A stretch of 11,474 nt of DNA from NCBI GenBank assembly GCA_031255375.1, contig JAIRSP010000009.1, positions 1 through 11,474 of the forward strand, given 5' to 3'. The notes below the pieces were generated by a model that was given only the letters and a program-made list of their open reading frames with translations, was not told where the DNA came from and did no database searches. The position numbers and the translations under genes were made by a program. Positions 9,784 through 10,537 of the stretch are shown here, in pieces. This DNA is from Endomicrobium sp. GTDB lineage: Bacteria > Elusimicrobiota > Endomicrobiia > Endomicrobiales > Endomicrobiaceae. Numbering within the stretch: position 1 is the first letter of the stretch; each line of letters begins with the position of its first letter.

Positions 9784-9957
9784 TTTTAGTAAAGTTGTTT
9801 TCTATGATTATTTTTTTTAAAGCATGCATTTTTTTATTTATGTTGTAACATACTAGCTAATATACTTACATAATTATTGATTAGTTTTTAAATTATATAT
9901 GCATATTGATAATTTGGCAAATGATTTAATAATCATAATTTATATTTAGATAAATTT

Positions 9958-10031
9958 CTGCCCGACCTGGATTTGAACCAGGGAATTTCTGCTCCAGAGG
10001 CAGACGTGTTACCAAATTACACCATCGGGCA
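9958..10031 (-). tRNA. tRNA-Gln (anticodon CUG)
   Basis: The minus strand folds into a complete cloverleaf. The 7-bp acceptor stem is TGCCCGA/TCGGGCA with discriminator G73, and the D-arm is GTGT...ACAC. The anticodon stem TCTGC/GCAGA holds the loop CTCTGGA (U33, anticodon CUG, G37), and the T-arm is CCTGG-TTCAAAT-CCAGG. U1-A72, G2-C71, U35, G36 and G73 fit tRNA-Gln identity. CCA is not encoded (AAA follows), so a CCA-adding enzyme is needed. It lies 74 nt downstream of tmRNA on the same strand and may share its transcript. Confidence 0.92.
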
Positions 10032-10314
10032 ATATTCATTTTTCTGTTTACAGTAATATGAAAATATCATTTTTATCAATTTAAAACGTTTGTTTTTCAA
10101 ATTAATGGAGGTGGCGGGAGTCGAACCCGCGTCCGAAAACATTTCAGTAAGACATAGTTACAGGTTTATTCTGAAATTCAAATTATAACAATTATGTAGT
10201 TTCAGACTAACTAAATAATTTTTTACATATCTTTCAACACCAAATTCTAAACTAATATGAAACAATAACAGAAATCTATTTTTACAATCAAAATACAAAT
10301 ATAAAACTGTTATT

Positions 10315-10437
10315 TTAAACAATAGCTGCTTGCATTAATTCAAAATTTTCGATTTTTTTTCTCATTTTGAAAAAAATTTGTGAGAACATTGAAAAAACGA
10401 AAATTTTAAAACAACTTGCTAAAAAAGTAAAATTGTC
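10315..10437 (-). CDS. tmRNA tag reading frame, unusually long (about 40 codons)
   Basis: Counting 11 nt from PK1, with T and A at -5 and -4 as in E. coli, gives GAC at 10437 as the resume codon. That frame stays open for 40 codons and stops at TAA (10317-10315), one base before the first strand of H5. It begins DNFTFLASCF, passes through the hairpin (Lys/Phe-rich), and ends NFELMQAAIV. Usual tags have about 8-35 residues and end in Ala-Ala after a hydrophobic residue, so length and ending are both atypical. Two other frames stop earlier: one after TTGTTT at the TAA covering 10408-10406, and one at the TAG at about 10421-10419. The true resume codon therefore needs direct proof. Confidence 0.45.
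   Translation of the reverse strand, partial: DNFTFLASCFKIFVFSMFSQIFFKMRKKIENFELMQAAIV
10342..10407 (-). repeat. 66-nt AT-rich hairpin within the tmRNA tag region
   Basis: AAAATTTTCG (10407-10398) pairs with CGAAAATTTT (10351-10342). T6 (10397-10392) pairs with A6 (10358-10353), and TTCTCA (10386-10381) pairs with TGAGAA (10364-10359). That makes about 22 bp, with a CAATG bulge on one side and a single T on the other. The outer stem can be extended by up to 4 more weak pairs. The length is exactly 22 codons, and it starts and ends on codon boundaries of the long tag frame. Confidence 0.75.
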
Positions 10438-10448
10438 ATTTAATTTTA

Positions 10449-10481
10449 GTCGAATTTTTACGAAGCCTTCGACGAACTTCG
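10449..10481 (-). other. tmRNA pseudoknot PK1
   Basis: Stem 1 pairs CGAAG (10481-10477) with CTTCG (10465-10461). Stem 2 pairs GTCGAA (10473-10468) with TTCGAC (10454-10449). The connecting TAAAAA is identical to the E. coli PK1 connector. PK1 positions the resume codon, which in E. coli lies 11 nt after the pseudoknot; the same spacing here points to the GAC at 10437-10435. Confidence 0.75.
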
Positions 10482-10537
10482 ACCTGATGTCATTACATCA
10501 ACAATTTTCGTCGATACCTGTTCACCCCCACTCATAA

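Follow-up and report, generated by a model that had tools for sequence, protein, structure and literature searches.

Few short signals in bacteria are as well conserved as the tag encoded by tmRNA, which usually has about 10 residues. Extended tags that Lon recognises are known from Mycoplasma and Mesoplasma (Gur and Sauer 2008; Ge and Karzai 2009, as cited in the available part of PMC3985003). According to the same part of that source, these tags are altered, with changed C-terminal residues, and belong to genomes that lack ClpXP, ClpAP and Tsp; it mentions no membrane-like stretch in them. Furthermore, hydrophobic sequences can promote degradation by Lon in M. pneumoniae, as stated in the available text of PMC7737663. 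The mRNA-like region with the open frame that precedes helix 5 spanned 48-126 nt in a 2005 set (PMC1168896, available part), and an A at position -4 emerged as the main determinant of the tag frame (PMC2481249, available part). In Carsonella the tag frame was found through conservation among strains, the same approach as the one adopted here (PMC4131195, available part). Among the open-licence papers listed in our literature searches, no title or abstract opening names a membrane-like tmRNA tag or a tag from Endomicrobium.

We analysed a stretch of 11,474 nt from Endomicrobium sp. (contig JAIRSP010000009.1 of assembly GCA_031255375.1), hereafter the window, whose minus strand at 10529-10106 is a one-piece tmRNA gene (ssrA; Table 1). 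In an Rfam covariance-model search, RF00023 covers 10529-10103 of that strand with 81.4 bits, vs a gathering score of 47, and is matched over model positions 1-374; ARAGORN, run on the window, reported no tmRNA and the neighbouring tRNA-Gln alone. The acceptor stem, T arm, PK1 and H5 are all intact, and the region of PK2-PK4 has low posterior probabilities in the Rfam alignment. CCA is not encoded, the discriminator A at 10106 being followed by TTA. In the acceptor stem U at 10109 lies opposite G at 10527, forming a G3-U70-type pair, which we take to confer alanine identity. The first stem of PK1 shows a paired change from G-C to A-U, CGGAG/CUCCG of the relatives having become CGAAG/CUUCG in the window (alignment of 9 tmRNAs, read by eye).

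Table 1. Features of the tmRNA locus, in window coordinates
Feature	Position	Strand	Evidence
One-piece tmRNA gene (ssrA)	10106..10529	-	RF00023, 81.4 bits; alignment with relatives
Neighbouring tRNA-Gln (CTG)	9958..10031	-	ARAGORN (9957-10032) and Rfam
5' acceptor strand GGGGGTG	10523..10529	-	Rfam alignment and sequence
3' acceptor strand CACCTCC	10107..10113	-	sequence and alignment with relatives
PK1	10449..10481	-	CGAAG/CUUCG and GUCGAA/UUCGAC, both stems complementary; alignment of 9 tmRNAs, read by eye
Spacer of 11 nt ending in UAAAU, which fixes the resume codon; position -4 is the A at 10441	10438..10448	-	sequence; rule from the available part of PMC2481249
Probable tag frame, 40 codons: DNFTFLASCFKIFVFSMFSQIFFKMRKKIENFELMQAAIV	10318..10437	-	sequence; likeness to the G005 and G034 tags
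Hydrophobic core of the tag (IFVFSMFSQIFF)	10369..10404	-	hydropathy; borders set by hand
Basic stretch KMRKK after the core	10354..10368	-	G005 has MRKK at the same place
Tag stop codon UAA	10315..10317	-	sequence
Helix H5, arms 10264-10284 and 10294-10314	10264..10314	-	inverted repeat and Rfam alignment

For comparison we searched 29 genomes reached through loci and the 83 genomes of the order to which one relative, G005, belongs. A tmRNA was found over the cut-off (E <= 1e-20) in 67 of the 83, and tags were read in all 67 of these: 61 in a first pass (with positions set by hand for G007 and G017), five from later loci, and that of G041 by hand.

The resume codon in the window is GAC at 10437, directly preceded by UAAAU, and the frame stays open for exactly 40 codons, up to a UAA stop that adjoins H5. 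Openness alone is only mildly unusual, because 2.2% of base shuffles of the tag stretch likewise remain open over 40 codons, and the open frame was dropped as proof of coding on this account. The strong evidence for a tag is that the predicted peptide resembles the tags of relatives in this frame and not in the other two. Upon local alignment of the 40-aa peptide with the 67 tags, the best score was 64 for G005, followed by G034 (34), G062 (32), G056 (30) and G001 (23), and none of 2000 shuffles reached 64, even as best-of-67; in the core, FKIFVFSMF-SQIFFKMRKKIENFE aligns with FKVFVSGMFLVGLFFGMRKKSKGFE. The other two frames of the window peak at 24 and 29. Furthermore, aligning the ssrA genes of relatives placed the tag start and the AA end in one frame in four of them (G005, G001, G034 and G056). 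Accordingly, the frame 10437-10318 is very probably the tag frame, as judged by sequence comparison, and the 40-aa tag would be added in the usual way to chains on stalled ribosomes.

The position of the start agrees with this assignment. Counted along the extracted tmRNA, the window's tag begins at index 112. Of the 67 tags of relatives, 59 begin within 110-114, 37 of these exactly at 112; the other eight come from sequences that had been cut differently or were shifted. Directly before the resume codon, the 67 tags show the five letters UAAAC (48), GAAAC (9), UAAAU (6), CAAAC (2), CAAAA (1) or UAAAA (1). These features are partly built in, and the starts are not independent of the resume rule, because the pattern used to read the tags itself demanded that position -4 be A and that the tag end in a plausible pair of residues (AA, AV, VA, VV, IV or FA). 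The coordinates given by the first-pass annotation are exact, and the covariance model, at 81.4 bits vs 47 over its whole length, bears out the gene. Its placement of the resume codon by the E. coli rule (11 nt after PK1, UA at -5/-4) very probably yields the true tag frame, as the match to the G005 peptide suggests. The shorter frames that it offered as alternatives end at the first stops of the two low-scoring frames, and nothing points to the changed resume rule that it had contemplated.

By a VorB/KorB-type subunit, relatives of the window at 85-86% identity are Endomicrobiellum genomes, from bacteria that live in termite-gut flagellates, and the best named relatives of its DnaG are from Endomicrobium. 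In a DnaG tree of 47 rows, G056, the window, G006, G034, G005 and G001 form a group with support of 100/99, within which the window joins G006, G034, G005 and G001 at 99/98; the last four unite at just 85/92, and the branch of the window is long (0.67). The distance between dnaG and the tmRNA gene on one contig is 5.7 kb in G005, 6.0 kb in G034, 4.9 kb in G006 and 4.2 kb in the window, and on the basis of these similar distances the loci look like orthologous places. As far as sequence likeness can tell, the frame of the window is related to the lengthened tags of this one Endomicrobiellum clade, which contain a hydrophobic stretch of 12-15 residues followed by basic residues. Within the clade, G006 has a 22-aa tag without the hydrophobic insert, having either lost it or never had it.

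Across the order the 67 tags range from 9 to 50 aa with a median of 23 aa, which makes long tags normal for this group: at least 20 aa in 59 of the 67, at least 30 aa in 11 and at least 40 aa in six. Tags of 9 aa occur in G017, G020 and G028 (ANENLALAA, ANNNLALAA). Outside the order set, G029 and G027 have 8-aa tags, and the loci of G023 and G024 gave no confident tag. With its stop the frame takes up 123 nt in the window, 132 nt in G001, G005 and G034, 144 nt in G056 and 153 nt in G004; the window thus falls inside the 48-126 nt given in the available part of PMC1168896, so that length alone is not new for it, and the other five frames exceed that range. Several tmRNAs of the order have individual peculiarities: 1) a tandem duplication of 42 nt, in frame and 86% identical, has lengthened the G041 tag to 49 aa (L204:652-735); this tag is less certain because the 5' part of its tmRNA is abnormal, which may be an assembly fault. 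2) An insert resembling an intervening sequence sits in PK1 of G017 (L098:1571-1683), its 23-nt arms being 91% complementary, and the tag ANENLALAA follows it. 3) The shortest of the 67 tmRNA matches, those of G046 (275 nt, L142), G049 (307 nt, L143) and G047 (270 nt, L144), come from genomes of 0.4-0.5 Mb. Of the two suggestions that the first-pass annotation had made about the tag itself, that it is the longest of its group fails, the six longest tags of the order being those of G001, G005 and G034 (43 aa each), G056 (47 aa), G041 (49 aa) and G004 (50 aa); that it is hydrophobic and basic is borne out by G005, G001, G034 and G056.

In these last four of the five clade relatives, tags of 43-47 aa contain 14-15 hydrophobic residues and then basic ones. 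Under the reading that we favour, this hydrophobic-basic middle would be kept for what the peptide does. The main competing explanation, which we rate as possible but somewhat unlikely, is that the tag is translated and its middle nearly neutral: the start and the C-terminal end would be all that matters, the interior would drift and grow by small in-frame insertions or duplications, and the hydrophobicity would come from T-rich inserts. Such drift would suit the wide variation of interiors over the 67 genomes, the duplication in G041 and the lack of an insert in G006. The hydropathy values speak on both sides. In a ranking of 62 tags (five later-parsed tags and that of G041 are left out), the best 15-residue Kyte-Doolittle window places these four at ranks 1-4, with G001 at 2.27, G034 and G005 at 2.21 and G056 at 2.15, a concentration in one clade that neutrality does not lead one to expect; the window's tag is sixth at 1.77. 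Compared with base shuffles kept open, the 15-residue P values are 0.017 for G001, 0.064 for G034, 0.053 for G005 and 0.009 for G056, and that of the window, 0.38, lies within the expectation from base make-up. At 19 residues all are unremarkable (G001 0.13, G034 0.10, G005 0.23, G056 0.09, window 0.24), as near-neutrality would have it, and the hydrophobic signal hence depends on window size. The 19-residue maxima are 1.77 for G034, 1.74 for the window, 1.43 for G005, 1.35 for G001 and 1.21 for G056, the usual cut-off for a membrane span being 1.6, and the cores are short for such a span.

Further points weigh against a neutral middle. Positive charge is distributed asymmetrically in all five long tags of the clade, including that of the window, with 4-6 K/R on the C-side of the core vs 0-1 on the N-side (borders by hand). 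The peptides of the window and G005 are similar, and the cores contain fewer charged or polar residues than random changes would give (P 0.02-0.16 over 10 pairs). In a codon alignment of the five long tags, third positions change most in 8 of 10 pairs, with one tie and one exception (G005-G001), a bias that is weak taken alone, and pN is lower than pS in all 10 pairs. Set against the same number of randomly placed changes, the peptides are also the better conserved in every one of the 10 pairs, with P from 0/2000 (window-G005) to 0.12 (window-G001) and just 0.08-0.12 in three of them, but the pairs lack independence, and an alignment built on peptides favours conservation.

Another explanation, which we consider quite improbable, is decay: in a shrinking genome this tmRNA would be degenerating and its tag would have ceased to direct proteolysis, with AAIV at the C-terminus marking the loss of an old stop codon. 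The Rfam score of the window is indeed the lowest in the clade (81 vs 128-157 bits), its DnaG branch is long, and AAIV does not match the ClpXP-type (L)AA degron end. Of the 67 order tags 61 end in AA, and the other six also depart from it: G058 VV (L141), G004 FA (L202), G054 VA (L134), G055 VA (L133), G011 VA (L100) and G040 AV (L126). For ribosome rescue itself, the tag need not be a good degron. Decay is opposed by the retention of the acceptor stem with its G-U pair, the T arm and PK1 with its paired change, and by a frame that has stayed open with a conserved peptide. Finally, it is very improbable that the insert is an RNA element, a hairpin or an intervening sequence cut from the RNA that the ribosome does not read through: the window's tag does form a long AU hairpin of -21.3 kcal/mol, a value that 2.3% of base shuffles attain, only 1.7% of the synonymous-codon shuffles of G034 fold as low as G034 itself, and G017 has its insert in PK1, but 8.7% of the synonymous-codon shuffles of the window fold equally well, folding is not in excess in G005, G001 and G056 (27%, 27% and 18%), which also differ in their folds, the peptide is conserved, and start and AA end share one frame in four relatives. 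The fold data favour the coding reading, with some structure besides being possible.

If the middle of the tag is kept for its function, the proteases of these bacteria become relevant. Among the 83 order genomes, clpP was found in 68, clpX over the cut-off in 68, FtsH in 80, SmpB in 74, Prc over the cut-off in 51 and Lon_C, weak matches counted in, in 80. SmpB and FtsH are present in all five clade genomes (G001, G005, G006, G034 and G056). No Prc match over the cut-off was found in any of the five, although four gave partial matches, weak at 18-30 bits. Prc over the cut-off is missing from 32 of the 83 order genomes and from 25 of the 67 with a tag, the five clade members among them. As all hydrophobic tags come from one clade, the correlation with Prc amounts to one event and has no statistical weight. 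In G035 and G044, Prc-like genes contain several stops, and Prc is therefore probably being lost more than once in the group.

G005, G034 and G006 have clpX, clpP and lon. In G001 clpP and lon both stand, and the clpX that lies between them is broken, its pieces being spread across frames with stops (L206:4934-6184). The single Clp_N protein found in G001, as in G005, is ClpB, and with clpX broken G001 seems to be without a partner for ClpP. G056 gave no clpP match, no clpX over the cut-off and a weak Lon_C match, gaps that may reflect an incomplete genome. In G004 and G064 (L207, L210) lon directly follows tig with neither clpP nor clpX between them, and in G058 lon stands without clpP or clpX within the 10.5 kb read. 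A general rule by which loss of ClpXP explains long tags was rejected: G064 has the tig-lon arrangement yet an ordinary 20-aa tag ending in AA, and G005 and G034 have long tags yet clpX, clpP and lon are all there. Tags without an AA end occur in 4 of 13 genomes without clpX over the cut-off vs 2 of 54 that have it (Fisher P 0.011), and in 2 of 6 vs 2 of 53 when only genomes with lon are counted (P 0.048); because neither test corrects for kinship or incomplete genomes, this link is only a lead.

We give an even chance to the proposal that rescued chains are directed to FtsH or Lon by the hydrophobic-basic middle of their tag. Rescued chains would become substrates of membrane-bound or hydrophobicity-seeking AAA+ proteases, and this route would replace ClpXP for cytoplasmic chains and periplasmic Prc/Tsp for exported ones. 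In a chain stuck in export, the segment, with its basic side last, could serve as a stop-transfer helix, such that the C-terminus of the tag would stay in the cytoplasm, where FtsH works. This step is the least certain part of the proposal, and we regard as unlikely its fullest form, namely that the tag is a built-in stop-transfer helix pinning export-jammed rescued proteins in the membrane, C-terminus inside, for FtsH, in a lineage without Prc/Tsp and with one member without clpX. Were it true, trans-translation would decide the location of proteins besides their degradation. Against steering to FtsH or Lon stand G006, which belongs to the clade and has neither the segment nor Prc, and G005 and G034, which keep clpX, clpP and lon. 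A clade with a membrane-helix-like tag of 40-47 residues, no Prc found over the cut-off in its five genomes and clpX broken in one provides a natural experiment on the joint change of tag and protease.

Set beside the known systems, the window shares with E. coli ssrA (tag ANDENYALAA) the tRNA-like end, PK1, tag frame and H5, as well as the distance of 11-12 nt from PK1 to the resume codon and the UA at -5/-4, the rule given in the available part of PMC2481249. It differs in a tag four times longer that has a hydrophobic core and basic flank, in a resume codon for Asp (GAC) rather than Ala, and in an end that reads AAIV rather than ALAA. The Mycoplasma/Mesoplasma condition is approached by G004, whose 50-aa tag ends in PLFA and whose lon follows tig without clpP and clpX; unlike those genomes, most Endomicrobia with tags of at least 20 aa keep clpX (68 of 83 order genomes over the cut-off). 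The other Endomicrobia tags (e.g. NDKFVPMQSVKPFMGFGAMPIAA) have the same resume site and the same N- or D-rich start as the long tags of the clade, and share the MPxAA/VPxAA end with G001, G005 and G034, whereas the window is without the MPxAA end; at about 23 aa, they have no hydrophobic run of 14-15 residues. What is new here is a trans-translation tag with a membrane-helix-like segment, the function of which we infer.
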